Assembly: GCA_026399015.1 (NCBI GenBank)
Contig: JAPLRS010000016.1
Span: forward strand, 1 to 64,000
Length of the DNA stretch: 64,000 bases
Source of the DNA: Methylococcales bacterium
Lineage (GTDB): Bacteria; Pseudomonadota; Gammaproteobacteria; Methylococcales; Methylomonadaceae
Direction of reading: 5' to 3'
Numbering within the stretch: position 1 is the first letter of the stretch; every line of letters begins with the position of its first letter. A program made the translations under genes and the position numbers. The notes below the pieces were generated by a model. It did not search any database. It worked only from the letters and a program-made list of their open reading frames with translations, and was not told the DNA's origin. Shown here one piece after another: positions 3,198-60,210 of the stretch.

Positions 3198-3269
3198 ACA
3201 TCAGTCTGAAAACATGCATCACAACTGCAATTATCTGATGCTTATACAATAAAAACAAGGGGTTCCATC

Positions 3270-4451
3270 ATGTCAAAACAAACTATTAATATGCAGAAAC
3301 CATTAAATTTGATCTCAAAAGCACCAATAACTAAAGCAAAGTTGTTTGGCACAACTGTTACATCAATGTTACTCACTTTTATTTCGATGCCTACGATTGC
3401 AGCCATCCCGGCCTATACATTGAGAGAGATACCGTTCCCCGAAATCGCTGTTCCATCAGGGGCGACAGCTCGTCCAGTCTGTCTAGGTATAAATGAGACT
3501 GGACAAGTAGCTTGCAACCTGGAAATAATCCAAACACTAGCTCGGTCTCCGATTGACCGTTTGGCACCTAACCCTGACATATTAGCGAGTTATGCTTATG
3601 TATGGGACATTAAAACTAACGCTATAACGCTATTAAGCTCCCGTTCACCCAATACATTTGATCGTGTCTATACCATCTCTGATACATTTGTTGGAGGATC
3701 AATTGCTAGTGTCGGCAAGCCGTCACAAGGTGTTACTTGGTCGCTGTTTGCATTAGATACGCCCCCTAAGCCTTCAATCAAGGGACCCGGGGTAATATCA
3801 GATATTAATAACAATGGTGATTATGTTTTTAATAGTCAGTTATATAGTAGCGACATACCCGTGAACTTTCCTGGTAAAAACAACAAAGTTCAAGCGATAA
3901 ATAATCCATCTGATACTTCTGCATTAAAAGCAGCGGGTAGGCAAAATTTATTATCACCAATAAAAACATCAGGTCTGGGGCTTTTATATTCTGACGCTCC
4001 CACAAAGCCACTTTATGCTTTAACCAGTAATCTCAGTAGTTATTCCATTAGCGATTTAAGCGATGATGGCAAACGCTTGGTTATTAATGGCGCACCTAAC
4101 ACTTTGAGCGCTGCTATTGCCTTAAATTGTATTGCACCACAAAACTGCCAAATTCAACTTGCAACAGTTAATTTTTCAGGGAGAGCTCGGCCTTATATTC
4201 GTCTAAATTCTGTGAACAATAATGGGAAAGTAATAGGTACAGATGGTGGAATTGCAATTTTGATAAATCCACCCTTAACACCTAAATCAAATAGCAATCG
4301 AGTAGATCTTAATAGTCAAATTCCATCAACTAGTTTTAGTGATTTCGGCTGGTTTTTAAATGAAGCTATCGGCATTAATAATGATGGAAATATCGTAGGG
4401 GTTGGTCTCAAAGGCGGAAAGAACGTAGCTTTTTTGTTAAGTCCAATTTAA
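3270..4451 (+). CDS. Secreted HAF-like repeat protein
   Basis: The product has 393 residues. The N-terminus is a long basic region followed by a hydrophobic segment ending in a signal-like site near TIAAIPA (about residue 46). The body contains recurrent motifs of the type (I/V)N(N/D)xGxVxG, for example GINETGQV, DINNNGDYV, VNNNGKVIG and GINNDGNIVG. This is the pattern of HAF-type extracellular repeats, which form propeller-like secreted domains. AAGGGG at 3257-3262 supports the start. It lies between paralogue 1 and the long multicopper oxidase on the same strand, so I infer an exported accessory protein of the same cluster. No catalytic residue is recognisable. Confidence 0.75.
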   Translation: MSKQTINMQKPLNLISKAPITKAKLFGTTVTSMLLTFISMPTIAAIPAYTLREIPFPEIAVPSGATARPVCLGINETGQVACNLEIIQTLARSPIDRLAPNPDILASYAYVWDIKTNAITLLSSRSPNTFDRVYTISDTFVGGSIASVGKPSQGVTWSLFALDTPPKPSIKGPGVISDINNNGDYVFNSQLYSSDIPVNFPGKNNKVQAINNPSDTSALKAAGRQNLLSPIKTSGLGLLYSDAPTKPLYALTSNLSSYSISDLSDDGKRLVINGAPNTLSAAIALNCIAPQNCQIQLATVNFSGRARPYIRLNSVNNNGKVIGTDGGIAILINPPLTPKSNSNRVDLNSQIPSTSFSDFGWFLNEAIGINNDGNIVGVGLKGGKNVAFLLSPI

Positions 4452-4583
4452 TGATTAACCAATATTAACTAGATTGTAGTTAGGGAGGTATCAATGCAGA
4501 TAAACAAAGGTCCCTCCCTGTCAATGCCAAGTGAATCAAATCTAGAAATGGTGTTAATACATACCTAATGTGAGGAACGAATC

Positions 4584-7358
4584 ATGAAAAAAATAATAAT
4601 TGCTTATAAACAAATCAGAATCGTGATCAGCCAAGTACAAAAAAATAAATTTAAGCTAGTTCCAAAAATTTTGGAATCTGTAATTGTTGCCTCAACTATT
4701 TCTGCCAGCAAAACTAACTCAACTTTAGCTGTAGGTATAGCACTTGTAACAAGTAGTTTATTTGTTGTAACACAGGCAGAGGCAGGTTTTAATATTCCTA
4801 CTGCGACGGTAAACAAAATTACCGGTTTATTTACTCCAGTACCGAGTCCGTTGTGTATCGCTGGTTCTTGTGCAACTGAATTTACCGCTAAGATCCTGTT
4901 ATTCGATGAGTTCGGAACTAAAAATCTATCATCAACCAACTCGACTGTAACATTACCACCCGTATTAGGTGATTGTAGCAGTATGCCCGATGGCGCTGCA
5001 CTCGATACGTTTCTCAAAGAGGATCTAAACTCAACACCTAGTCGCCTTGCAAATATTAGTGCAGCAAATGCTTGGGAAGTAAAAATTAAAGACTGTGTGC
5101 CTGGGGTAACATCTACGGTTGCTGAAGGGCGACCCTCTGGTGAAGAGTTTGCACATCAACGTTGGGATGAATTTCCTGCTCAAAAATACTTTCAAAGTGC
5201 TCAGACCGGTGCTAGAGATAATGGCGGTTTGCGTGATAACAGACAGATGCATGGTTATAAGACCGGCGAGTTTGCTAAAGGTGGTTTGTATTACATTGAT
5301 GTGGATGGAGATGGAAATCCTGGTACCCAAGGTTTAAAAATTAGGCTACATCCGGCTTTACCTGTCCAAGATAAAAATTCAGTTTGGACTTTTGATGGTA
5401 CTTTACCGCCTAAATTACTGATGGCTAAATATGGGGAAGCACTTATCTTTAGACATTGGAATGCTCTGCCTATTGATGTGTCAGCTAACAATGGTTTTGG
5501 TCGACATACTATCAGTACCCATGAGCATAATGGCCATAACGGTGCCGAGAGTGATGGTTTTATGCATGCCTATTCGTATCCGGGGCAATTTTATGACTAT
5601 CATTGGCCGATGGTACTAGCCGGTCATGACAGTATAAATGTGGGGGCTTTAAGTGTTAAAACTGGGGCGCCCGATGGAAATGGTGGTATTACACAGGTGC
5701 CTGGTGATTGGCATGAAACCATGAGTACGCATTGGTTTCATGATCATATGATGGATTACACGGCACAAAATGTCTATAAAGGTAATGCTGCGATGATGAA
5801 TTATTACAGTGCTATAGACAGAGGTAGAGAGCCTGCAAACCTTGCTGAAGCTTCGGGTAGTTCTGATAAGCCAGGTTACGGCTGCAATTATGCTGACAAT
5901 AATCCGATTTCTAATCCAAGTTCATTTAACGTAAATCTCTGTTTACCCAGTGGTTCTGGTTTAGATTGGGGCAACCGTGATTATGATGTTAATTTGGTGT
6001 TAGCTGATAAAGCTTGGGACACATCGGGCCAACTTAAATTTAATATCTTTAACTTGGATGGATTTTTGGGTGACCGCATGACCGTTAATTGGGAATATAA
6101 ACCCTATATGGATGTTCGGGCTCGTCGATATCGTTTCCGTCTGTTAAATGGGGCTGTATCTCGTAATTTTAAGGTTGCAGTTGTGCAAGCATTGACTGAT
6201 TCAAAAGGCACAATTACCTCCTATAAATCAATACCATTTTACATGATTGCTAACGACGGAAATTTGATGCAACATGCTATTCCTTTCCCAATTAAGACAC
6301 AACCCATTGATCCAGTAACAAAAAAACCGGATCCAACGTGGATATTGTCAGAGGGTTTGCCAGAACAAGGCATAGCTGAACGCTATGACATTATTGTTGA
6401 TTTTGCCCAAGTACCCGTAGGTGGCAAAGTGTATTTGGTTAACTTGTTGGAGCATCAAAATGGAACGGGTCCATCTAGTATTCGTAAACTTGTTGACGTA
6501 ATCGGTGTTCCTGCCATTAAAGGCGTTGCTGCTACTAAAACTTCGCCTGCTATCGCTGCGGTTCCTGCTGTCACGGTGGACGGACTGACAACTAATGCAA
6601 CTTATGTTGCTGATGGGATTAGTGGCGATCCTGTGGTTGGGAAGTTTTTGGAGTTCAGGGTGCAAACATACTCAGGTACTGATCTAAGCATGAACCCTGT
6701 TGATTATATGGAAACGGTTACAGTTGCCGGTAAGCAAGTCCCCGGTAGGCAAATGATTCCAGTCAATAAACCGACCCCTGCGGAATTAAAAGCTGCCGTG
6801 CAAAGAACCTTTGCATTTGGCCAATCCAATGGCACAGATACAACCCCATGGACGGTTAAAACCGATGATATATCAGGTGGCGGTTTAGCAGCTGATGAAC
6901 ATCGAGTTTCAGCAGCACCTGAGCTTCCAATCTTGCCGAATGACTTGGGTAAAGTTGAAATTTGGCATATTCAGGGGGCAGGTGGATGGACTCATCCAGT
7001 ACATGTTCACTTTGAAGAAGGACAAATTTTGAAACGTGGCGGTGTCGCTCCACCTATCTGGGAAAAATATGCGCGTAAAGATGTCTATCGCGTAGGTCCA
7101 ATGTTAGATAGTACAACCAGTATTGATATGGCCATTCGCTTTAGAGAATTTGCTGGAACCTATATGGAGCATTGTCACAATACTCAGCATGAAGATCATT
7201 CTATGTTAGTTCGTTGGGATATTGAACGCCCCGGTCAAACATTGCGTATGCCTGTTCCTATGCCTGATTGGAATGGCACGACATATGATCAGTCTATCAG
7301 TTTACCAACCGTTAAGTTTGGAGATTTGTCTGCCAAGAAAAGTTTCAAATTCCCATAA
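4584..7358 (+). CDS. Multicopper oxidase, long form
   Basis: This is a 924-residue multicopper oxidase of the CotA/bilirubin-oxidase-like type. All four copper-binding motifs are present: HEH at 313-315, HWFHDH at 383-388, HPVHVH at 804-809 and HCHxxxHxxxxM at 863-874. The type 1 site therefore has a methionine axial ligand (M874). The N-terminus is a long basic leader followed by a hydrophobic stretch ending in AEA-GF (about residue 68), an extended Sec-type signal. It is much longer than the usual ~500 residues, with added N-terminal sequence and inserts between the copper motifs. GAGGA 8 bases upstream supports the ATG. The enzyme should couple one-electron substrate oxidation to oxygen reduction in the periplasm or at the surface. 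The substrate (Mn(II), Fe(II), Cu(I) or organics) cannot be told from sequence. Confidence 0.93.
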   Translation: MKKIIIAYKQIRIVISQVQKNKFKLVPKILESVIVASTISASKTNSTLAVGIALVTSSLFVVTQAEAGFNIPTATVNKITGLFTPVPSPLCIAGSCATEFTAKILLFDEFGTKNLSSTNSTVTLPPVLGDCSSMPDGAALDTFLKEDLNSTPSRLANISAANAWEVKIKDCVPGVTSTVAEGRPSGEEFAHQRWDEFPAQKYFQSAQTGARDNGGLRDNRQMHGYKTGEFAKGGLYYIDVDGDGNPGTQGLKIRLHPALPVQDKNSVWTFDGTLPPKLLMAKYGEALIFRHWNALPIDVSANNGFGRHTISTHEHNGHNGAESDGFMHAYSYPGQFYDYHWPMVLAGHDSINVGALSVKTGAPDGNGGITQVPGDWHETMSTHWFHDHMMDYTAQNVYKGNAAMMNYYSAIDRGREPANLAEASGSSDKPGYGCNYADNNPISNPSSFNVNLCLPSGSGLDWGNRDYDVNLVLADKAWDTSGQLKFNIFNLDGFLGDRMTVNWEYKPYMDVRARRYRFRLLNGAVSRNFKVAVVQALTDSKGTITSYKSIPFYMIANDGNLMQHAIPFPIKTQPIDPVTKKPDPTWILSEGLPEQGIAERYDIIVDFAQVPVGGKVYLVNLLEHQNGTGPSSIRKLVDVIGVPAIKGVAATKTSPAIAAVPAVTVDGLTTNATYVADGISGDPVVGKFLEFRVQTYSGTDLSMNPVDYMETVTVAGKQVPGRQMIPVNKPTPAELKAAVQRTFAFGQSNGTDTTPWTVKTDDISGGGLAADEHRVSAAPELPILPNDLGKVEIWHIQGAGGWTHPVHVHFEEGQILKRGGVAPPIWEKYARKDVYRVGPMLDSTTSIDMAIRFREFAGTYMEHCHNTQHEDHSMLVRWDIERPGQTLRMPVPMPDWNGTTYDQSISLPTVKFGDLSAKKSFKFP

Positions 7359-42037: not shown

Positions 42038-45000
42038 TTAAACAACCCAAATATCACTAGCTACAAGATTTGGATGCGTTGTAATGCCTAATACTTCAAA
42101 AACAATAACCCCACCATGCGCATCGCCGTTTGTATCATAAGATAACTCACCCGTAGTTGAGTTATATATAATACGATCAGTGGAATCATGTGCGACTCCA
42201 GATGGATCTGACCAAAACCGCGCATCGTTTACACCAAATTGGCCATTAACTCCACCCAACTGAGAAAAAGCACTCGCACTAATCTGCAATTTATCAGTAC
42301 CCGAGACAAAATCTAAAATCAAATCTTTATTAACAGCCGGATTAGGCAAACTATCAAACCAAAAGGTATCTGCATCAGCGCCCCCGGTTAAGGTATCGTT
42401 ACCCAAACCACCTACTAAAAGATCATTACCACTACCGCCATTTAATACATCATTATTAGCGTAGCCAAAAAGAGTATCCGCACCCACATTGCCATTAATA
42501 ACATTGGCTATAGAATTGCCCGTTAGAATATTATCCAAATCATTACCTATAGCAGTGGTTGCCACATTTCCTGTTAATGATAGATTTTCGGCGTTAAGTC
42601 CATTAATTGACATATCAAAATTAACCGAACTTTTTAAAGAGTCAGTCCCTTGATTCGGTAACTCAATCACCGTATCTAAACTATTATCGATAATGTAAGT
42701 ATCATTCCCTAAGCCACCCTGTAAGGTGTCAGCACCACTTTTACCATCGATAAGATTATTAGCGTTATTGCCAATAAGAATATTCGCACTCGCATTGCCT
42801 GAAAGATTAAACAATGCTGTTAAAGTACCAGAAATATCATAGTTTTCTATATTCATAGGCACTAAAACCGTCTTATATGCGCCCGTATAAACTCCTGTTA
42901 CTTGCACAGTATCTATACCAGCACCAGCGATAATATTATCTTCAACTTTACCGATATTATTGATAGTTACAACAAAGGTATCATTTCCACCACCACCAAT
43001 AAGCTTGTCAACTCCTAAACCACCTACTAATGTGTTATTACCAGAGTTACCGGTAATAATATTTTTGGCATCATTACCAACACCCAAAATATTAGCAGTT
43101 CCTGTTAAAGTAAGATTTTCAATATTACTACTTAAGGCAAAATCAACAGAGCTATTAACTATGTCTATTCCTTCATTATTATTTTCGAATACAGCAGTAC
43201 CTAAGGTATTAACACTGTAATTATCATTGCCTGAACCACCGACAAGAAAATCTTGACCGCCATTGCCATTTAAGGTGTCGTTTCCTGCACCACCTAATAA
43301 AATATCTACACCCGCAGTTCCACCTAAATTATTAAAACTTGCATCACCTTTAATGACAGTAAAATTTGTTACAGATTGAGCAATACCAACATTTTGATCA
43401 TCAGTTAGCACAGTTATGGTATCAACTTTGGTTGATGCGGTAGATATAGAAGCATTTGAAGGGATTGTAAAAGTATATTTCCAATCAACATTTATAGTGC
43501 CCAACGCCTCAGTACTATTACTTAAGATTGCTTGTCCTCCAGCATTACCAACTAAACTTATTGAGGAGAAATGGGTGTCTTTAACATTTGCGTCTTTAAA
43601 AACCGAATGACCCTTAATGGAAATAATCGGATATAAAACAGTGTCTGGCGTTAAAGCAACTGAATCTAAAACAGGAGGATACGGCAACTGTATTACCTCA
43701 ATAGCCACTTGCACAGGTGTTAAAGATTCTGCTCCTATATTATCTTTTGCCACTGCAGTAAAAGCATTAACAATACCTAAGGCATTTAAATCTGGTGTCC
43801 AAAATGCCTGATTTCCAGAAGAAACTGTGTTGTTAGTAGTGGCATCCCATGGCGTTGCCGTATCTGCAGTAGCACCAATAAGTAAGGTGCCTGAGGATAG
43901 CGATTTAATAACAAAACTAACAACAGAGCCATCACTATCCGCCGCGTTACTTTGGGCAAGCAAATCTGCATAAGTGATTAAAATTTGACTCTGCTCAATG
44001 CCACTAGTGAGTGGTGATGAGAAACTAGATAAAGTGGGTATTAAATTTGAGAAAACTGAATAGTCAAAGTTTGCAGGAACTAAGTTTGATGCAATTACAT
44101 TTTGTAAACGTACAGCCGTTATAAGAGCATAACTATTACCCGCCGCACCGTCTAAATCAAACTTTAATAAAGTATCAGGACCTGATTGCTCAAGTGATAA
44201 GAACCCCTTAGTAAAAGGATTAGATCCATCATAGTTTATGGCGGCGTTTCTTAAAAGATCAGAATAATCTAGTAAATCGCCCGTTGCACCTGATGCAAAA
44301 TCAGTAATGACCGTAGGATCCGCACTGACTAAAATATTTGTATTATCTGATATTTTAATATTTCGAGTACCTTCTTGTAGGGTTCGAAATTGTTGAGCAG
44401 TAAGATTAAAAATATCTCGGCCGGCACCCCCAGTTAAAAATAAGTGCAGTACACCACTAGCCGTTAATTCATCATTACCGTCACCACCCTCTAAAGAAGC
44501 CGTAGCAATACCGTAATTATGTCCATCACTTAATAACTTTCCTGCAGACTTATCGATAACAGTAAGAATATCGTCCCCGGCTCCACCCAACAATGTGGCA
44601 TTAGTCTGGCCAAATATTGTATTACTATCACCAAAAATGCTTAGATTATCGTTGTCAGAACCCCCATCCAAAAGGTAGGATTTAACAACTTTATAGGTAT
44701 CTTCTTCTGCACTATTAAAATTACCATCAAAATAAACTGATAATTTATCAACCCCTGCCCCACCTGATAAAGTAGCGGCTCTAACCCAATTTGCGCTTAA
44801 GGTATCTGCACCATCACCACCATTTAAGTCAGCAGAGCTAAAGTAACTGGCGCTTAAATAATCAGAGCCAGCACCACCCAGTAATGTGGCTGTAGAATTC
44901 TTTTCAAAATTTGAATGCCCCTCAGCTGCTATTTTACCTGTTGCATATAACTTATCGTCTTGATCACCGCCATCGAGAATAACCGATGTTCCAGCCGCGG

Positions 45001-45355
45001 TTAGTACATCATTTCCTAATCCGCCTAATAGTGTCTCAGATCCGGCTGAAGCTGTAGCGGTTAAAACATCATTATCAGCGCCACCATCTAGTAAGTTTGA
45101 ACCTTTATTATCAATTAAAATGTCATTACCGATACCGCCATAAAGCGTGTCATTTCCTTCCCCACCCAATAACGAGTCATCGCCTGCGTCACCATAAAGC
45201 AAATCATTACCTTCTAAACCACTTAAGGTATCGTTACCACCTAAACCGTGAAGAGTATCGTTGTAATGAGTACCTAACAGGTTATCAGCTAGCTCAGAGC
45301 CATTGATTAAGGTATTAATCGGTAACGAAGCAGTACTTTGACTATCTTGGAGCAT
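42038..45355 (-). CDS. Large RTX repeat protein, probably type I secreted
   Basis: About 1105 residues; ATG 45355 is chosen over a TTG two codons upstream, and neither has a clear ribosome site. Residues ~20-340 and ~700-1050 are dense in calcium-binding nonapeptides of the form GGxGxDxLx. Between them is a cadherin/Ig-like region (about 460-690). The C-terminus (LILDFVSGTDKLQI...GELSYDTNG) is the serralysin-like end typical of type I secretion substrates. No protease motif is seen, so an adhesin or surface-layer/biofilm protein is more likely than an enzyme. No type I exporter genes are nearby. It lies directly upstream of the pilus operon on the same strand, so both could serve attachment. 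Confidence 0.9.
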   Translation of the reverse strand: MLQDSQSTASLPINTLINGSELADNLLGTHYNDTLHGLGGNDTLSGLEGNDLLYGDAGDDSLLGGEGNDTLYGGIGNDILIDNKGSNLLDGGADNDVLTATASAGSETLLGGLGNDVLTAAGTSVILDGGDQDDKLYATGKIAAEGHSNFEKNSTATLLGGAGSDYLSASYFSSADLNGGDGADTLSANWVRAATLSGGAGVDKLSVYFDGNFNSAEEDTYKVVKSYLLDGGSDNDNLSIFGDSNTIFGQTNATLLGGAGDDILTVIDKSAGKLLSDGHNYGIATASLEGGDGNDELTASGVLHLFLTGGAGRDIFNLTAQQFRTLQEGTRNIKISDNTNILVSADPTVITDFASGATGDLLDYSDLLRNAAINYDGSNPFTKGFLSLEQSGPDTLLKFDLDGAAGNSYALITAVRLQNVIASNLVPANFDYSVFSNLIPTLSSFSSPLTSGIEQSQILITYADLLAQSNAADSDGSVVSFVIKSLSSGTLLIGATADTATPWDATTNNTVSSGNQAFWTPDLNALGIVNAFTAVAKDNIGAESLTPVQVAIEVIQLPYPPVLDSVALTPDTVLYPIISIKGHSVFKDANVKDTHFSSISLVGNAGGQAILSNSTEALGTINVDWKYTFTIPSNASISTASTKVDTITVLTDDQNVGIAQSVTNFTVIKGDASFNNLGGTAGVDILLGGAGNDTLNGNGGQDFLVGGSGNDNYSVNTLGTAVFENNNEGIDIVNSSVDFALSSNIENLTLTGTANILGVGNDAKNIITGNSGNNTLVGGLGVDKLIGGGGNDTFVVTINNIGKVEDNIIAGAGIDTVQVTGVYTGAYKTVLVPMNIENYDISGTLTALFNLSGNASANILIGNNANNLIDGKSGADTLQGGLGNDTYIIDNSLDTVIELPNQGTDSLKSSVNFDMSINGLNAENLSLTGNVATTAIGNDLDNILTGNSIANVINGNVGADTLFGYANNDVLNGGSGNDLLVGGLGNDTLTGGADADTFWFDSLPNPAVNKDLILDFVSGTDKLQISASAFSQLGGVNGQFGVNDARFWSDPSGVAHDSTDRIIYNSTTGELSYDTNGDAHGGVIVFEVLGITTHPNLVASDIWVV

Positions 45356-45483
45356 CAGCAAGAACCATTTAAAGTTAATTTAAATCTAGTAAAAACGCAT
45401 ATTTATCTGATAATAGCCAAGATTTAAGAAACCCGTCAATATAAAAATTGTTAAGTTTTTATTACATGTAATACGATTAAAGA

Positions 45484-46205: not shown

Positions 46206-46793
46206 ATGGACAAACTAACCATCGACACTTATAACCTTGAGGCAGAACAAGTCGCAAAGTTACATGCTGGTTTAACGCCGACACGGCTTTACGCACTTGT
46301 AACCGAGTACTTTACAAAAAATATTCTAACACTTGACGTGGGTTGCGGTATTGGTCGAGATACAAATTGGTTAAATCAACAAGGTTATCCCGCAATAGGA
46401 ATTGATGCTTCTGAGGGCATGTTAAACCAAGCAAAACAACTTTATCCAGACGTAAAGTTTATAAAAGATACCCTACCCGATCTTAAAACGCTTAACGAAC
46501 AATGCTTTAAGAATATATTGTGTTCTGCTGTGTTAATGCATTTAAACCAGGAAACACTATACGCAGCCTGCCTAAGATTAATAACACTATTAGAACCTGC
46601 AGGGCATTTAATCATCTCAATTCGTAACACCAAAGCAGACAATCATCGAGAAAATGGCAAGCTGTATGAAGACATTGATATTGCAGAATTTAAAGATTTC
46701 TTTATGCAACAGCACTGCCAAATACTCATCGCCGAACAAGAAACCGAATCCGCCCGGCAACTGACTTGGTATAACTTTGTTATTAAAAAATAA
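46206..46793 (+). CDS. SAM-dependent methyltransferase (small, class I)
   Basis: 195 residues. The SAM-binding motif I is LDVGCGIG at 43-50, followed by GIDASEGML, and a post-motif ILCSAVLMHL segment. It resembles UbiE/Tam-type small-molecule methyltransferases; there is no DNA-methyltransferase catalytic motif (no DPPY/NPPF). The last codons (LTWYNFVIKK) recur as a DNA fragment just upstream of the helicase gene at 49455. It marks the left edge of the accessory region. Confidence 0.85.
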   Translation: MDKLTIDTYNLEAEQVAKLHAGLTPTRLYALVTEYFTKNILTLDVGCGIGRDTNWLNQQGYPAIGIDASEGMLNQAKQLYPDVKFIKDTLPDLKTLNEQCFKNILCSAVLMHLNQETLYAACLRLITLLEPAGHLIISIRNTKADNHRENGKLYEDIDIAEFKDFFMQQHCQILIAEQETESARQLTWYNFVIKK

Positions 46794-46819
46794 ACTGTAG
46801 ATTTAAAATCAATGATTTT

Positions 46820-47128
46820 TTAGATAAGTTCTATGTAAACTTTCAACGCAGATACTGTTTGCGGTAATTGTTGTTTTTGTAATATCGCTAAAAACTCATC
46901 TTTAGATTTTGGTGGGTTCTTTAATGATTCCCGCTGTCTTTTAATTGCGCCACAGGCAATAGCCGGAGCTAAGTCAATTTGGCTATAAATAAACTCATCA
47001 GGATGAATCGCCTCAATGTCGTATTTTGATAACTCAGCATAGGGGAAATCTTTTAAATTAAACGTAATGATAGCATCCATACCTGATTTAATAGCCGAAG
47101 CATCATAGATAACAGAATACTTTGCCAC
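46820..47128 (-). pseudogene. Internally deleted PIN-domain toxin
   Basis: The 102-residue frame begins like a PIN toxin (MAKYSVIYDAS) and jumps directly to the C-terminal half (AIKSGMDAIITFNLKDFP ... HPDEFIYSQIDLAP ... LPQTVSALKVY). Full-length relatives I know are about 180-190 residues, so roughly 80-90 residues, carrying most acidic active-site residues, are missing in frame. Only the first aspartate remains. The GTG start overlaps the antitoxin stop by one base, so it is still coupled. It is probably inactive as a nuclease. Had this been a naturally short family, the abrupt N-terminal join would be unexpected. Confidence 0.7.
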
Positions 47129-47580
47129 TATTCGTAACCCATGCCCAAATCTTGGGCTTGGGCAGCTAAGTCATCAAGTGCCTTGAATCGGGCTTCATCA
47201 ATACGTTGCTTATACTCAAATACATCATTTACCAAAATCCGTCGGTGCGAACCCACTTTTCTAAACGGAATTTTACCTTGCTCCAATAAGTCCACTATAT
47301 GTGGCCGACTTACATTTAACAACTCTGCCGTTTCCTGAGTAGACAATTCTGCATGAATTGGCATCACAGTTATCGCATTACCTTTAGACATTTCTGTCAA
47401 CATAGCGAGTAATAAATTTATTGCATAACCCGGTAAAATTAAATCCTCCGATTCATTATTACTGGCTATCTTTAAATGTAACCTTTCACTTTGGGCATAT
47501 TTTGATAAAGCTCGACTGGTTATTTTTGCTTCTTCTGCTTCTTGCACTGTGGGCAAATGAACCACATTAGATAAAGTCAC
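47128..47580 (-). CDS. Excisionase-type HTH antitoxin
   Basis: 150 residues starting at GTG 47580 with GGAG 9 bases upstream. A helix-turn-helix of the excisionase/MerR-like type spans about 85-135 (LSTQETAELLNVSRPHIVDLLEQGKIPFRKVGSHRRI). It is the partner of the PIN gene immediately downstream, in the typical antitoxin-first order, and likely autoregulates the pair. The antitoxin appears intact while its toxin is not. Confidence 0.82.
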   Translation of the reverse strand: MTLSNVVHLPTVQEAEEAKITSRALSKYAQSERLHLKIASNNESEDLILPGYAINLLLAMLTEMSKGNAITVMPIHAELSTQETAELLNVSRPHIVDLLEQGKIPFRKVGSHRRILVNDVFEYKQRIDEARFKALDDLAAQAQDLGMGYE

Positions 47581-47658
47581 ACTATATACTCCAAATTAAT
47601 ATTTGTCTGACACAAGATAAACGAAATAAACGAAAATGACAACGCGGATTTTTTAACC

Positions 47659-48121
47659 ATGAATACTGACACCCTCACTAGAATTTATTCGCTTGATTGC
47701 CAGTGATAAACAACAGACAATAAGCCAAGCTAAAGCTTTAGCAGAACGGCTTGATAAAATAGACTTAGATGGTTTGGATCTTATTGAAACAATATTGGTT
47801 TATAAGTTACCGCACTTAAACCGCGAGGAGATTAAAAAGATGTTATCAGTATACGAAATCAAATTACAAGATACCCGTTTTTATCAAGAAGTATCTGCAG
47901 AAGGCGAGTTAATTGGCGTACAAAAAGGTTTGCAAAAAGAATGCATTAAATTAGTTAGTCGCCAACTAAGACGCAAATTCGGCGTACAACCAGAACTTGA
48001 AACCATATTACAAAGCTTACCGACCCACCCTTTAGAAAAACTAGAAGACTTAGCCGATGCCTTACTAGACTTTAAGGCAATGAGCGATTTAGAAACCTGG
48101 TTAGCAGATAATACAGGCTAA
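47659..48121 (+). pseudogene. Rpn-like nuclease gene, 5' truncated (copy 1)
   Basis: ATG 47659 begins MNTDTL like copy 2 (48581), but after ACCCT the sequence jumps to what is codon ~137 of copy 2 and is out of frame, stopping at codon 16. The original frame then runs open from about 47690 to 48121 (SDKQQTISQAKALAERL...), with the DUF4351-like tail (LRRKFGVQPELETILQ... DLETWL) intact. CACCCT occurs at both sides of the deleted segment in copy 2, pointing to a microhomology deletion of about 400 bp. The family is PD-(D/E)xK, 'recombination-promoting nuclease/putative transposase'. Confidence 0.75.
47671..48110 (+). repeat. Direct repeat, copy 1 (Rpn-like 3' part)
   Basis: Matches 48991-49372. 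The first ~220 bases differ at about two positions; after that copy 2 lacks 55 bases and has some substitutions, then identity resumes to ACCTGGTTAGC. Near-identity implies recent duplication or ongoing gene conversion. Confidence 0.85.
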
Positions 48122-48144
48122 AACGCTTGGATTCATATTTACAA

Positions 48145-48372
48145 CTATAACGATAGAGCATCATCTTTATCTAAGCGATCAAGTATGGCTAGGGCTTTAT
48201 TAATATCACCTTGCTCAGCTAAAGAGCGAAAACGAATTTCAGTGTCCCAGGCCGCCAGAGCTTGAGCACTCATTTCTTCAACCAATTTATTGACACTCTG
48301 TCCACGACTGCGCGCATAAGATTTAAGACGTTGAGCCGTATTATCTGGCAATCTAATTGTTAATGTACTCAT
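48145..48372 (-). CDS. Ribbon-helix-helix antitoxin-like protein (orphan)
   Basis: 75 residues. The N-terminus STLTIRLPDNTAQRLKSYARSRGQSVNKLVEEMS is a ribbon-helix-helix DNA-binding fold of the CopG/HicB-antitoxin type. The tail (SLAEQGDINKALAILDRLDKDDAL) would be the toxin-binding part. No toxin gene adjoins it: both flanks are broken Rpn-like copies on the other strand. It may be an orphan antitoxin or regulator. Confidence 0.75.
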   Translation of the reverse strand: MSTLTIRLPDNTAQRLKSYARSRGQSVNKLVEEMSAQALAAWDTEIRFRSLAEQGDINKALAILDRLDKDDALSL

Positions 48373-48580
48373 CTAATTGTCTCCAAAAAATCAGCAGGAT
48401 TTTGTATCTTAATATTACACCATTACGATAACTTTACTAAAAATAATAACTTAAATACACCAAACAACCAATATAGTAAACATGCTGACAATAGAACGCT
48501 TAATCAGACCTACTTCACTTTAGGTAATGATAGTGTGTTAAGGTAGTTACGCCACATCACTCTTAATTGATTTTGTAATC

Positions 48581-49383
48581 ATGAAAACGGACACCCTGTT
48601 TTACCGCTTATTTCTGCGTCAGCCGAAACTAGCGCTGGAGTTATTAGGGCTAGATTATCCTAATGATAGTTATCAATTTAGCTCAGAAGAAATAAAGCAA
48701 ACAGCGTTTAGAATCGACGGTTTATTTAAACCTGTTACCGATAATCCAAATCAGCCACTCATCTTTGTTGAAGTTCAATATCAAGCGGACAATGATTTTT
48801 ATGGGCGCTTATTCAGTGAGATGACCTTATATCTTTATCAAAATAAGCCAAAACGAGATTGGTTAGTATTAGTCATTTATCCACACCGGACAATTGAAAA
48901 AAAGCCCAGCATAGAGTTCTTACCTTTCTTAAACTTACCCCAAATACACCGCATTTACTTAGAAGATTATCAAAATCGGTCTGACTTATCACCCTCACTA
49001 GAATTTATTCGCTTGATTGCCAGTGATAAACAACAGACAATAAGCCAAGCTAAAGCTTTAGCAGAACGACTTGATAAAATAGACTTAGATGGTTTGGATC
49101 TTATTGAAACAATATTGGTTTATAAGTTACCGCACTTAAACCGCGAGGAGATTAGAAAGATGTTATCAGTATACGAAATCAAATTACAAGATACCCGTTT
49201 TTATCAAGAATTAAATTACTAGGACGTTTATTAAGACGCAAATTCGGCGTACAACCAGAACTTGAAACCATTTTACAAAGCTTACCGACCCACCCTTTAG
49301 AAAAACTAGAAGACTTAGCCGATGCTTTACTAGACTTTAAGGCAATGAGCGATTTAGAAACCTGGTTAGCCGAAAACACTTAA
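48581..49383 (+). pseudogene. Rpn-like nuclease gene, frameshifted (copy 2)
   Basis: The first 213 codons (48581-49222) are intact: MKTDTLFYRLFLRQPKLALELL..., with the PD-(D/E)xK-like region RIDGLFKP...IFVEVQYQ (residues ~47-70). Relative to copy 1 a 55-base deletion after TATCAAGAA shifts the frame and causes a TAG at 49220. The lost DUF4351-like tail continues in another frame to the TAA at about 49381. The nuclease domain might still be made, but the gene is damaged. Copies 1 and 2 are damaged at opposite ends. Confidence 0.75.
48991..49372 (+). repeat. Direct repeat, copy 2 (Rpn-like 3' part)
   Basis: Second copy of the repeat at 47671-48110, offset 1320 bases at the start and 1265 after the 55-base deletion. 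Confidence 0.85.
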
Positions 49384-49401
49384 ACCTAACCCACTCCACA
49401 C

Positions 49402-49434
49402 CTGACTTGGTATAATTTTGTTATTAATAACTAA
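49402..49434 (+). pseudogene. Fragment of the methyltransferase 3' end
   Basis: 33 bases matching 46761-46793 at 30 positions. They would encode LTWYNFVINN and a stop, versus LTWYNFVIKK and a stop at the end of the methyltransferase gene. The fragment ends 20 bases before the GTG of the helicase gene. It looks like the relic of an earlier methyltransferase-helicase junction. Confidence 0.65.
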
Positions 49435-49454
49435 CCCGTACCAGGAATTAATCT

Positions 49455-52400
49455 GTGACAGAGCGGCCACTCATTTACAACAAACTCGTTAGAGATTTAA
49501 TCCCCGATCAAATCACACAATCTGGTAAATACGCAAAGACAGATACGCTTAATCAAGCCGAGTTTACCCACGCCTTAAAACTCAAACTACTAGAAGAAGC
49601 GCATGAGCTATTCCATGCCGATAATAGAGACGCGGTTATCAATGAATCGGCAGACTTACTAGAACTGATAGAAACCCTACTCAAGCAACACAACATTAGC
49701 CTTACCGAAGTACAGGATAAACAAAAGCAAAAACGCGACAAAGTGGGTAGTTTTGATAAACGCCTGATGCTATATGCCACAGCGACCGACCCTGACCTGC
49801 TTAATAACCCAATTAATAACCAAATTAAAGAGCCCCGCTTACCGCAATTACTGACCTTTAACTCAGTTACTGGCTTAGTGGATGTTATCAAACGCGAACT
49901 AGAAGATGCTGATGCCCTTTATATCGCCTCGGCATTTTATTCAAGAAGCATGCTTAACCTGCTCTTAGATCCGTTCTTAAAATTTATAAAACGCGGAGGA
50001 GAACTTAAACTCCTTACTTCCATCATGGGTAACTTTAACAACCCCAATGACCTCAAACATTTAAGCACCCAACTAGCCGACATTAAAGTAAAAATCTTCT
50101 ACCCACTTGATGAATTTGGCCAAGCAGACTTTAGCCAAACACCACCACCCTTTCATGTAAAAAGCTTTCTATTTACCAAAGCCACCGGCCAACATGCCTT
50201 AATCGTGGGATCCACTAACCTTACGGAATCTGGCTTATCTAGAAACCATGAATGGAATTACTTTTCTAATAGTGAACCTAACCTCGTACTAAAAGATAAA
50301 GTCTCTGCCTTTCAGTATGCCCAACAAGAATACCAACACTACTGGGAGCAAGCCTCCATTCCAGTTGATGATGACTTTATAGCCGCCTACTTACCGCGTT
50401 GGCAAAAAGCGCACGAATTACGCACAAAAGTAAGCCAAGAAATGGCCGTTGCTTTTAAAACGACATTAGCACCCAGACCGGCACAAATCCAAGCCTTATC
50501 TGCATTGGCAGATCGTCGTGCAAAAGGCATTAATAAAACTACCGTGATTGCCGCTACTGGCTTAGGTAAAACCTATCTGGCCGCTTTTGACTACAAAGCA
50601 AGCGGCATGAAAAGCTTGTTATTTATCGCGCATCGAGAAAACATACTGATTAAAGCTTTAGAAACCTTTAGAGAAGTAACCCAAGATGCAAACTTTGGCA
50701 GTGTTTTATCAGGCAATCAAAAAACCAGCACCGCTAGCCCATGCTTATTTGCTATGGTGCAAACACTTTCGCAAACTGACACCTTAGCGCAATACGCAGA
50801 CACCGCGTTTGACTATATCGTGATTGATGAATTTCACCATGCCGATGCCAGCTCTTACCAACGCCTACTGGCTAAATTTAAACCTAAATTTTTATTGGGA
50901 TTAACCGCTACACCAGAACGCATGGATGGCCGTGATGTCTTAAAAATCTGTGATTACGATATCGCCTTTGAAACCCGCTTATTTGATGCCATTAATAACC
51001 GCTGGCTAGTGCCCTTTCAGTATTTTGCAATACATGACCCTAGCGACTATAAGACATTACGCTGGACAAGTCGGGGCTACATAGAAGCCGAACTGGATGC
51101 ACTATTAATTAATGACACCCGCGCCGAATTAATCTTTAACAACCTGATTAAATTCTTACCCGCCACCGGCAAAATAAAAGCCCTCGCCTTTTGTGCCTCA
51201 AAAACACATGCCGACTACATGAACAAACAATTTAATCATCTAGGTGCCAAACGAGGGATTAAATCTGTGTGTTTATTGGGTAAAGACAGCATCGAAAACC
51301 GAACTACGGCCATACAACAATTACAAGATGAACAACACGCCTTACAAATCATCTGCTCAGTCGACATCTTTGGCGAAGGCATTGATATACCTGCTGTATC
51401 GCATGTGTTATTTTTAAGACCCACCCAATCCTTTACGGTATTTTTACAACAACTGGGTCGCGGTTTAAGACAAGTACCTGATAAAGATTACCTAGTAGCG
51501 TTAGACTTTGTTGGCAACTTTAAAAACTCTTATGTCGCCCAACTAGCCATTAACGGCTACACCAGCACCCTAGAATACAAACAACACAAAAACGCTAACA
51601 CCCCAGAAAAATCACTACCCAATGCTTGCTACATCAGTGCCGATACTCAGGTACAACGCATCTGGGATAAAGATATTAAAGATATCTTAAATAAATTTGA
51701 AGCCTTACAAGATATGTACCGCGACATGCGCAGTAATCTAGAAGACTCACCCGCACTCATGGACTTTTTTGCTAACCCAGCCACCCATGACCCTAGCGTA
51801 TATATAAAAGAGAAAAAATTCGGTGGCAACTGGTTACGCGTAAAAGCCACCATGGAAGACTTAACATCCTATGAGGCCAGCTTATTAGATACGCCCGCAG
51901 AGAGATTCTTACAACACATAGAATCAGAACTAAACCCAAACAAGTCATACAAAATGGTGGTGTTAAAAACACTCCTTGCGCTAAATGACACACATTGGCC
52001 AGTAGCCAACATTGCCGAAGGGTTCTTAAACTACTACCTAAGCAATCAAGACCGACTAGCAGATTGGGATGAATTGGCTAAAGCAACAGACCCTAAGCAA
52101 TTTGCACTGAGCAAGGTTATTACGCATTTACTAAAAATGCCTTTAGATAAAATGACTAACACCGGTGGCGAGTTTTTTACTCTTGATAAAACCAAGCAAA
52201 CCTTCAGCATACAAGCCTCTTATCAAGCCTATTGGCAACAGCCAGAATTTAAAATCCTAGTAGCCGATCGAGTCAACTTTGCTTTAACCAAGTATTTTTA
52301 TCGTAAAGATAAAGAGGGGGCTCTAGCTGATAATTTAAAAGGATTCGCAGTAGAAATCCCCTATGTCAGTAATCCAGAGACTGGCTTTACTAACGAAATT

Positions 52401-52667
52401 AGAAAAGTTATTGCAGCAAACCCCAAAGCAACCGAGTGGACTTTTAGTTTTGATAAAGCCGGCTACAACGGCACTATGGAATTAGAAATTCTAGAAGGAG
52501 AAAAGTTTATTGCATGGACCCATACCCAATACAAAGACATTACCCGCTTTCCGGCACGGATTAAGGCGGCGGCTAGTGCTTTGTATTTTGAGGGTTATAG
52601 AGGCGAGCTAAATGTTGTGGTTGAAGGGATTAGAATATCACTTCTTTGCGAAAAAATTTATAAGTAG
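49455..52667 (+). CDS. MazG-PLD-superfamily II helicase fusion protein
   Basis: 1070 residues from GTG 49455, with AGGA 8 bases upstream. (1) Residues ~1-110: an all-alpha NTP pyrophosphatase (MazG-like) domain with EExxE at 47-51 and ExxD at 64-67. (2) ~130-330: a phospholipase D/HKD-type nuclease domain with H234-x-K236 and GSTNLTESG. (3) ~350-700: superfamily II helicase with Walker A TGLGKT (K372), DEFH at 458-461, LTATPERMDG, a GEGIDIP motif and a QxxGRGLRQ motif VI. (4) ~720-1070: an unassigned C-terminal region. PLD-helicase proteins occur in defence and DNA-processing contexts. The added nucleotide-hydrolase domain suggests a nucleotide-linked nuclease effector. It stands alone in a toxin-antitoxin-rich accessory region, which fits antiphage defence, though that is inference. 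Confidence 0.9.
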   Translation: MTERPLIYNKLVRDLIPDQITQSGKYAKTDTLNQAEFTHALKLKLLEEAHELFHADNRDAVINESADLLELIETLLKQHNISLTEVQDKQKQKRDKVGSFDKRLMLYATATDPDLLNNPINNQIKEPRLPQLLTFNSVTGLVDVIKRELEDADALYIASAFYSRSMLNLLLDPFLKFIKRGGELKLLTSIMGNFNNPNDLKHLSTQLADIKVKIFYPLDEFGQADFSQTPPPFHVKSFLFTKATGQHALIVGSTNLTESGLSRNHEWNYFSNSEPNLVLKDKVSAFQYAQQEYQHYWEQASIPVDDDFIAAYLPRWQKAHELRTKVSQEMAVAFKTTLAPRPAQIQALSALADRRAKGINKTTVIAATGLGKTYLAAFDYKASGMKSLLFIAHRENILIKALETFREVTQDANFGSVLSGNQKTSTASPCLFAMVQTLSQTDTLAQYADTAFDYIVIDEFHHADASSYQRLLAKFKPKFLLGLTATPERMDGRDVLKICDYDIAFETRLFDAINNRWLVPFQYFAIHDPSDYKTLRWTSRGYIEAELDALLINDTRAELIFNNLIKFLPATGKIKALAFCASKTHADYMNKQFNHLGAKRGIKSVCLLGKDSIENRTTAIQQLQDEQHALQIICSVDIFGEGIDIPAVSHVLFLRPTQSFTVFLQQLGRGLRQVPDKDYLVALDFVGNFKNSYVAQLAINGYTSTLEYKQHKNANTPEKSLPNACYISADTQVQRIWDKDIKDILNKFEALQDMYRDMRSNLEDSPALMDFFANPATHDPSVYIKEKKFGGNWLRVKATMEDLTSYEASLLDTPAERFLQHIESELNPNKSYKMVVLKTLLALNDTHWPVANIAEGFLNYYLSNQDRLADWDELAKATDPKQFALSKVITHLLKMPLDKMTNTGGEFFTLDKTKQTFSIQASYQAYWQQPEFKILVADRVNFALTKYFYRKDKEGALADNLKGFAVEIPYVSNPETGFTNEIRKVIAANPKATEWTFSFDKAGYNGTMELEILEGEKFIAWTHTQYKDITRFPARIKAAASALYFEGYRGELNVVVEGIRISLLCEKIYK

Positions 52668-60133: not shown

Positions 60134-60210
60134 TGGTCGGAATGACAGGATTTGAACCTGCGACCCCTTGTCCCCCAGACAAGTGCGCTACCAAGCTGCG
60201 CTACACTCCG
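60134..60210 (-). tRNA. tRNA-Pro (GGG anticodon)
   Basis: 77 nt with encoded CCA. Acceptor stem CGGAGTG/CATTCCG, D arm GTAGCGCAGCTTGGTAGCGC, anticodon stem CTTGT/ACAAG with loop CTGGGGG (anticodon GGG) and T arm GCAGGTTCAAATCCTGT. It lies downstream of the MerR gene, as is common in gammaproteobacteria. Its 3' end faces the accessory region. Confidence 0.95.

Follow-up and report, generated by a model that had tools for sequence, protein, structure and literature searches.

A 64,000-nt stretch of a contig from a Methylococcales bacterium (the window) encodes, in a single open reading frame with a GTG start (49455–52667, plus strand), a 1070-residue protein that joins a MazG-like nucleoside triphosphate (NTP) pyrophosphatase domain to a phospholipase D (PLD) nuclease domain and a superfamily II (SF2) helicase-like ATPase. 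We propose, with confidence that falls a little short of even, that this fusion is a type IV-like (SauUSI-like) restriction endonuclease with a built-in nucleotide-pool sanitiser. The proposal draws on sequence homology and domain architecture, on active-site residues that are intact, on selection acting on the MazG domain, and on recurrent partner genes; from these we infer DNA cleavage, its dependence on modification, the substrate of MazG, and the avoidance of self-attack.

The closest solved chain to the window protein is 7CLG (window residues 129–785 against 7CLG 28–656, E 2.4e-87), which is SauUSI, an ATP-dependent modification-dependent endonuclease of Staphylococcus aureus, and the best PADLOC model is mREase_IV (E 1e-94). 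According to the available text of PMC7913695, SauUSI is built from a PLD nuclease, an SF2 ATPase, and a helical coupler, with an SRA domain for target recognition; it forms dimers via its PLD domains, translocates, and shreds DNA carrying methylated targets. Because the homology to SauUSI spans both the PLD and the ATPase, we take the fusion to be a SauUSI-like enzyme. The SF2 ATPase lies C-terminal of the PLD domain, in the same order as in SauUSI, and the HxK of the PLD domain is present (H234/K236), invariant in seven orthologues and within the 7CLG alignment. Pfam returned PRA-PH/MazG-like at residues 37–90 (E 9e-4; 20.1 bits, cut-off 21.3), PLDc_2 at 171–274 (E 7e-6; 26.3 bits, cut-off 27), ResIII at 338–489 (E 8e-34), and Helicase_C at 564–672 (E 1e-13). 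The first two scores are slightly below their curated cut-offs, and PRA-PH exceeds its cut-off in the orthologues L053 and L054 (L-numbers label surveyed loci and G-numbers genomes). Residues E47/E48/E51, E64/D67, H234/K236, K372, and D458/E459/F460/H461 are invariant across the seven aligned orthologues, which are 66–95% identical to the window protein. The three-domain fusion described by an earlier, sequence-only reading is thus confirmed, with its named residues in place.

That reading had left some 350 C-terminal residues unassigned, which still holds for about the last 110; of the remainder, the 7CLG alignment extends to residue 785, and residues 829–960 are weakly DUF3427-like. Specifically, DUF3427 positions 11–127 of 280 match residues 829–960 of L053 (E 0.0019), with a further match in L054 (E 0.017), both below cut-off, and Pfam gave no DUF3427 match in the window protein itself. 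We therefore describe residues ~829–960 as coupler-like, in that they weakly resemble the SauUSI coupler. For the last ~110 residues, PDB profile searches returned either nothing or rows that we judged to be chance (one summing six repeats; two at E 1.1–1.2), the viral contigs and plasmid records searched held no match, and 274 class genomes yielded one other match (E 0.0045), in a protein that is presumably a carbamoyltransferase. The C-terminus is modular, since members differ in how they end: with DUF3427 (L012, L034), with an S24-like domain (L010, L011), or with both (L106, L111). In these last four, which are methyltransferase-paired SauUSI-like proteins, the S24-like (LexA-type) peptidase domain follows the helicase.

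The MazG domain retains the EExxE and ExxD metal-binding residues of MazG/all-alpha NTP pyrophosphatases (E47, E48, E51, E64, D67), and its closest solved relatives are phosphoribosyl-ATP pyrophosphatases, at a marginal E value (0.004). Among 72,556 plasmid records, 20 (14 from Priestia) encode a relative of residues 1–119 (34–44% identity, E 7e-6 to 9e-3), and every one of these relatives bears the annotation nucleoside triphosphate pyrophosphohydrolase; we take these free-standing relatives to be COG4997-type. Among 398 phylum genomes, nine, including that of the window, have a MazG-domain match at E ≤0.01, most of them marginal. The residues invariant across eight fused and free MazG sequences include K10, R13, D14, K44, E47, E48, E51, E64, D67, E70, and F100. 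For four pairs, the ratio of nonsynonymous to synonymous substitution rates (dN/dS) was 0.20, 0.35, 0.08, and 0.19 in the MazG domain versus 0.18, 0.13, 0.09, and 0.11 in the whole gene. Judged from these alignments, the domain is intact and under purifying selection, and in one pair the constraint is looser than across the remainder of the gene. The earlier MazG assignment is accordingly supported by the PRA-PH match, the 20 annotated relatives, and dN/dS values of 0.08–0.35. Free-standing MazG genes of this type adjoin an exonuclease-domain gene (L066) or stand near HNH endonuclease genes (L067 and L068), all three on plasmids. Long DUF3427-type proteins (e.g. L012, L019) carry a helical N-terminal extension of ~110 residues that is in register with MazG but lacks its catalytic residues; for want of these, L012, whose match begins at residue 6, was rejected as a second MazG fusion. 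Whether the extension might be a decayed MazG was examined by profile comparison with hhalign, which gave a score of 9.2 (p 0.071, probability 0.45%), the highest among 60 column-shuffled controls being 5.4.

Nucleotide-active partners recur next to related genes. We surveyed 59 loci with the PLD part and 73 without, defining a partner as a Nudix and/or methyltransferase gene within 150 nt and a short gene as one with ≤35 residues before the PLD match. The survey left out L001–L047 and L056–L077 (short flanks, duplicates, other queries) and L049 (a contig-end copy), and L055, at a contig edge, stands outside the 24 short genes. A partner was found for 17 of the 24 short SauUSI-type genes (16 on the same strand; L111 opposite), or 10 of 15 when these were grouped at 60% identity (nine on the same strand; hand count). 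Five of 26 long DUF3427-type genes had one (L093, L105, L119, L135, and L136, with a weak Nudix match of 4e-8 in L105), as did two of the 73 other loci; one of these two is L088, a frame-broken SauUSI-like gene, and the 73 include further fragments with the PLD part missing or frame-broken (e.g. L127–L129), which makes them an impure control. Seeding of the partner profiles from surveyed loci means that seed members match by construction, and the sample is small and clustered; partner family names were checked independently for some, with record annotation as well. At least 10 short-type loci overlap the partner gene by 1–14 nt. In S. aureus the Nudix gene ends 1 nt upstream of sauUSI, whose open piece is identical to 7CLG over residues 1–656 apart from the last residues.

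Among 17 regions hand-chosen from the 70 plasmid or phage matches listed, the gene immediately preceding the PLD-helicase is annotated as a (deoxy)nucleoside triphosphate pyrophosphohydrolase in Hymenobacter canadensis, L. plantarum, Latilactobacillus curvatus, L. fermentum, and S. aureus; in L. plantarum (MazG-like by Pfam) and L. fermentum a nucleotide pyrophosphohydrolase gene lies downstream; and Pseudoalteromonas CuT4-3 has an annotated methyltransferase neighbour. The rest had no annotation or no such annotated neighbour, and reading of open frames in two unannotated regions revealed a methyltransferase (Aeromonas, L092) and a downstream Nudix (L093). Partners are also fused: in L109 a methyltransferase is fused to the PLD-helicase, and upstream of L099 a single 325-residue protein combines a Nudix with the same methyltransferase type and overlaps the SauUSI-like gene by 4 nt.

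A FastTree phylogeny was built from 55 sequences, without the short pieces L055, L089, L092, and L099. In it the MazG fusions form a clade with support of 1.00, whose sister clade (0.82) consists of nine short-type genes; methyltransferase-linked short genes form a separate clade (0.95) and long types with Nudix lie elsewhere. From these positions, the methyltransferase pairing falls on two branches and the Nudix pairing on at least two. All seven Nudix neighbours tested (L079, L086, L087, L088, L089, L093, L099) match PDC-S07 of PADLOC (E 2e-42 to 3e-55), and the unrelated-looking Nudix of L105 does so at 2e-5 only. When five Nudix partners were scanned, the best-scoring model was that for pyrimidine (d)NTP diphosphatases in three, with scores under its cut-off, MutT in another, and PRK08999 in the fifth. 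The available text of two papers on PDC-S07 mentions no Nudix and describes no partner, and the terms MutT, Nudix, operon, pyrophosph, and MazG are absent from the SauUSI structure paper (PMC7913695). The literature covered contained no statement of a MazG-PLD-helicase fusion or a Nudix–SauUSI link; its scope excluded most subscription papers and the 2011 SauUSI paper.

We postulate that SauUSI-type enzymes may work with a partner acting on nucleotides. Nudix, MazG, and methyltransferase genes are common, and one could instead regard the nucleotide hydrolases as house-cleaning genes that merely share defence islands, the fusion being incidental. The small, clustered sample and the self-seeded profiles leave room for this explanation, whereas the gene overlaps, the three kinds of fusion, the occurrence on separate branches, the scarcity of partners in the other loci, and the constraint on the MazG sequence all argue against it, and we consider it unlikely.

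In the model that we favour, the C-terminal region would recognise foreign, presumably modified, DNA, the SF2 motor would translocate, and the PLD dimer would cut. The N-terminal MazG would be the covalent counterpart of the pyrophosphohydrolase (Nudix, sometimes MazG) that neighbours other SauUSI-like genes. It would hydrolyse modified deoxynucleoside triphosphates (dNTPs), for example 5-methyl- or 5-hydroxymethyl-dCTP arising from digested phage DNA, and would thereby keep them out of host DNA, which the nuclease would otherwise attack. Such activities have precedents in the portions of the sources available: 5-methyl-dCTP is acted on by E. coli NudG and, at a far weaker level, by MutT (PMC3744803); DCTPP1, of the MazG family, hydrolyses 5-methyl-dCTP and lowers DNA methylation (PMC4491611); and SauUSI recognises 5-methylcytosine and 5-hydroxymethylcytosine (PMC7913695; PMC3874153). 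The sequence-only reading had allowed that MazG might deplete, sense, or sanitise nucleotides, and sanitising would best fit the Nudix partners of the relatives. In its general form, that modification-dependent enzymes of the SauUSI branch travel with an adjacent or fused sanitiser (Nudix, MazG, or HIT) that guards host DNA from modified bases, with self and non-self set at the dNTP pool and the window protein holding both halves in one chain, the idea is possible, and we advance it with more doubt than the reading of the fusion itself.

Two alternatives assign MazG a different target. It could be the effector, such that foreign DNA sensed by the helicase part would lead to draining of canonical (d)NTPs and arrest of phage replication by abortive infection. 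Nucleotide-depleting defences are known, a fusion would permit allosteric control, and the intact active site is consistent with this scheme. However, the PLD and ATPase residues are intact as well, and because of this the nuclease is probably the effector; moreover, the relatives are partnered by small Nudix enzymes that stand alone and are of a house-cleaning type. We hold an effector MazG to be improbable, to about the same degree as an incidental fusion. Alternatively, MazG or Nudix could act on the phage side, destroying modified dNTPs made by the phage so that its DNA would be unmodified and open to other restriction enzymes. The biochemistry would be the same as that of a sanitiser, and phages with 5-hydroxymethylcytosine are, in the available text, SauUSI targets; but this activity would erase the very marks that a modification-dependent enzyme needs, setting two halves of one protein at odds, and we rate it as somewhat less probable again.

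Several observations weigh against a restriction enzyme with its own sanitiser. The glutamate of the SauUSI HxKx4E motif is T241 in the window protein, T in L048, and V in L050 (E in L051–L055), and neither Pfam nor PDB profile searches recognised an SRA domain in the window protein or its orthologues. Seven of the 24 short genes lack a partner within 150 nt (L091, L095, L110, L114, L115, L116, and L133, the last with a Nudix 553 nt downstream), and an adjacent Nudix occurs in only three of the nine sister-clade members (L079, L086, L087). In the L051–L052 pair the MazG dN/dS of 0.35 is well above the whole-gene value of 0.13. The substrates of the window MazG and of the adjacent Nudix proteins are putative, and the model offers no explanation for the methyltransferase partner or, likewise, for HIT. 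Finally, mycobacterial MazG prefers oxidised nucleotides, 5-OH-dCTP and 2-OH-dATP, in the available part of PMC3855555.

The methyltransferase partner is best seen in the orthologues. A class I methyltransferase of 195–202 residues ends 20 nt before the fusion gene, or overlaps it by 4 nt, in L048, L051, and L052; in L050 the gap is 907 nt and contains two small genes on the opposite strand; and in the Geobacteraceae loci L053 and L054 a HIT-family gene takes its place, overlapping the fusion by 4 nt. The window methyltransferase, 93% identical to the L048 copy, ends 2.66 kb upstream of the fusion. L048 positions 3267–6492 align to window 49399–52615 at 96.4%, and a 59-nt direct repeat joins the two places (46741–46799 and 49382–49440, 80%). 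Because the end of the methyltransferase gene is repeated before the fusion as in L048, and because of this 59-nt repeat, we interpret the arrangement as an ancestral operon split by an insertion of ~2.6 kb. Inside the insertion, window 47670–49379 holds two near-identical DUF2887/DUF4351 gene regions (224 nt at 99%, 170 nt at 92%). A defence role without a partner, considered at first, was rejected on account of the coupled methyltransferase or HIT genes of orthologues and the scar in the window. Thus the fusion gene is probably not a single-gene system, contrary to the earlier reading. Direct repeats lie just upstream of the fusion, beside HTH_17, ribbon-helix-helix (RHH), and DUF2887/DUF4351 genes. 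An HNH and HIT pair also lies near the PLD-helicase of L079, and the short N-termini of L082–L084 (Rhodobacterales plasmids) start with CPIC...APRH, faintly like a shortened HIT. We discarded the latter as fused HIT domains, as the resemblance is weak and has no Pfam call.

This coupling also invites a restriction-modification reading, in which the methyltransferase would shield host DNA and the PLD-helicase would cut unmethylated DNA. The tight linkage in L048, L051, and L052, the methyltransferase-linked clade, and the L109 fusion speak for it. Against it, none of 14 partner methyltransferases carries the DNA-methyltransferase patterns (D/N/S)PP(Y/F/W) or PC (pattern test, the window copy represented by its L048 orthologue), Pfam and NCBIfam place the window copy among small-molecule-type methyltransferases, and the Geobacteraceae copies have HIT. 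The solved relatives of the window methyltransferase include phosphoethanolamine methyltransferases and unnamed methyltransferases. The methyltransferases of the window and of L096 match PADLOC mad2 (5e-9 and 1e-17), and the partner may be part of a MADS system. We regard restriction-modification as very unlikely.

The fusion is patchily distributed. Copies of 72–100% identity occur in six of 35 same-genus genomes, counting that of the window and a G020 copy truncated where its contig ends, and a seventh genome, G012, has broken pieces; 251 order genomes add one more, a 66% piece at a contig end in another family; and in 369 class genomes no other match at E ≤1e-40 begins before residue 130. 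A genome-contig scan with two short peptide patterns, which reaches near relatives only, found eight loci: five in Methylococcaceae/Methylococcales metagenome-assembled genomes (MAGs), apparently identical with those of the genus survey, two in Geobacteraceae, and one in a Nitrosomonadales MAG, frame-broken at a contig edge. These last two groups contain close relatives of the fusion. None of the plasmid and phage records searched covers 80% of the fusion protein, and a viral-contig scan gave one 29% match only, to the SF2 part; PLD-helicases lacking MazG do turn up on phage-labelled or viral contigs. This spread suggests horizontal transfer, with MAG binning errors possible, and together with the SauUSI homology it lends support to the defence role that had been predicted. 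The same genome has a second PLD-helicase (G000:C34; L002, L103), a long DUF3427-like protein of 1051 residues without MazG or a partner gene, 34% identical over residues 232–734.

Elsewhere in the window, a single tRNA-Pro lies at 60134–60210, and a few genes upstream of the fusion a 1107-residue protein (42038–45361, minus strand) carries many glycine/aspartate-rich RTX-like repeats.

Table 1. Positions in the window of the fusion gene, its domains, and the remains of the split operon.
Feature	Position	Strand	Evidence
MazG-PLD-SF2 fusion gene, 1070 aa	49455..52667	+	Open reading frame, Pfam, PADLOC, 7CLG alignment
MazG-like NTP pyrophosphatase domain, residues 1–112 (E47, E48, E51, E64, D67)	49455..49790	+	Pfam PRA-PH, free-standing relatives, invariant residues, dN/dS
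PLD nuclease domain, residues ~129–300 (H234, K236; N255 and E266 also invariant)	49839..50354	+	7CLG alignment, Pfam PLDc_2, invariance
SF2 ATPase, residues ~338–700 (K372, DEFH 458–461)	50466..51554	+	Pfam ResIII, Helicase_C, 7CLG
Coupler-like region, residues ~701–960	51555..52334	+	7CLG alignment up to residue 785; weak DUF3427 match of L053 at 829–960
C-terminal domain, residues ~961–1070; candidate target-recognition domain by position only	52335..52664	+	Conserved in 8 orthologues
Class I S-adenosylmethionine (SAM) methyltransferase	46206..46793	+	Pfam Methyltransf_25/11; immediately precedes the fusion in L048, L051, L052
Insertion: HTH_17 gene, RHH antitoxin-like gene, duplicated DUF2887/DUF4351 genes	46794..49398		Absent from L048
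Repeat of the final ~36 nt of the methyltransferase gene, immediately preceding the fusion gene, an arrangement shared with L048	49399..49434	+	L048 alignment

The usual answer to how modified-base-cutting enzymes avoid self-attack is that the host lacks such bases. Were a dedicated pyrophosphohydrolase needed, it would be an unrecognised second component of this type of restriction, present even beside textbook SauUSI, and, if true, this would give a context to the Nudix protein that PADLOC lists as the defence candidate PDC-S07. The fusion, as one protein with two separable active sites, makes the sanitiser idea testable.

Compared with known systems, the window protein is closest to SauUSI, with which it shares the PLD nuclease followed by the SF2 ATPase and, weakly recognisable, some of the coupler, in identical order, and the S. 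aureus gene, too, adjoins a nucleotide pyrophosphohydrolase gene, in that case a Nudix. It differs in its N-terminal MazG and methyltransferase partner, in T241 at the position of the motif glutamate, and in having no recognisable SRA. The long DUF3427 PLD-helicases (e.g. L002, from the same genome) likewise share the PLD, SF2, and putative coupler, but their N-terminal extension is helical and lacks the catalytic residues of MazG, and L012, L034, and L119 have a full DUF3427 end. The free-standing MazG pyrophosphohydrolases have the invariant residues in common with the window domain, at 40% identity, whereas the window MazG is joined to a restriction-enzyme-like protein. PDC-S07, a candidate label, corresponds to the Nudix found beside SauUSI-like genes in the seven neighbours tested, and in the window gene MazG stands in place of that Nudix.

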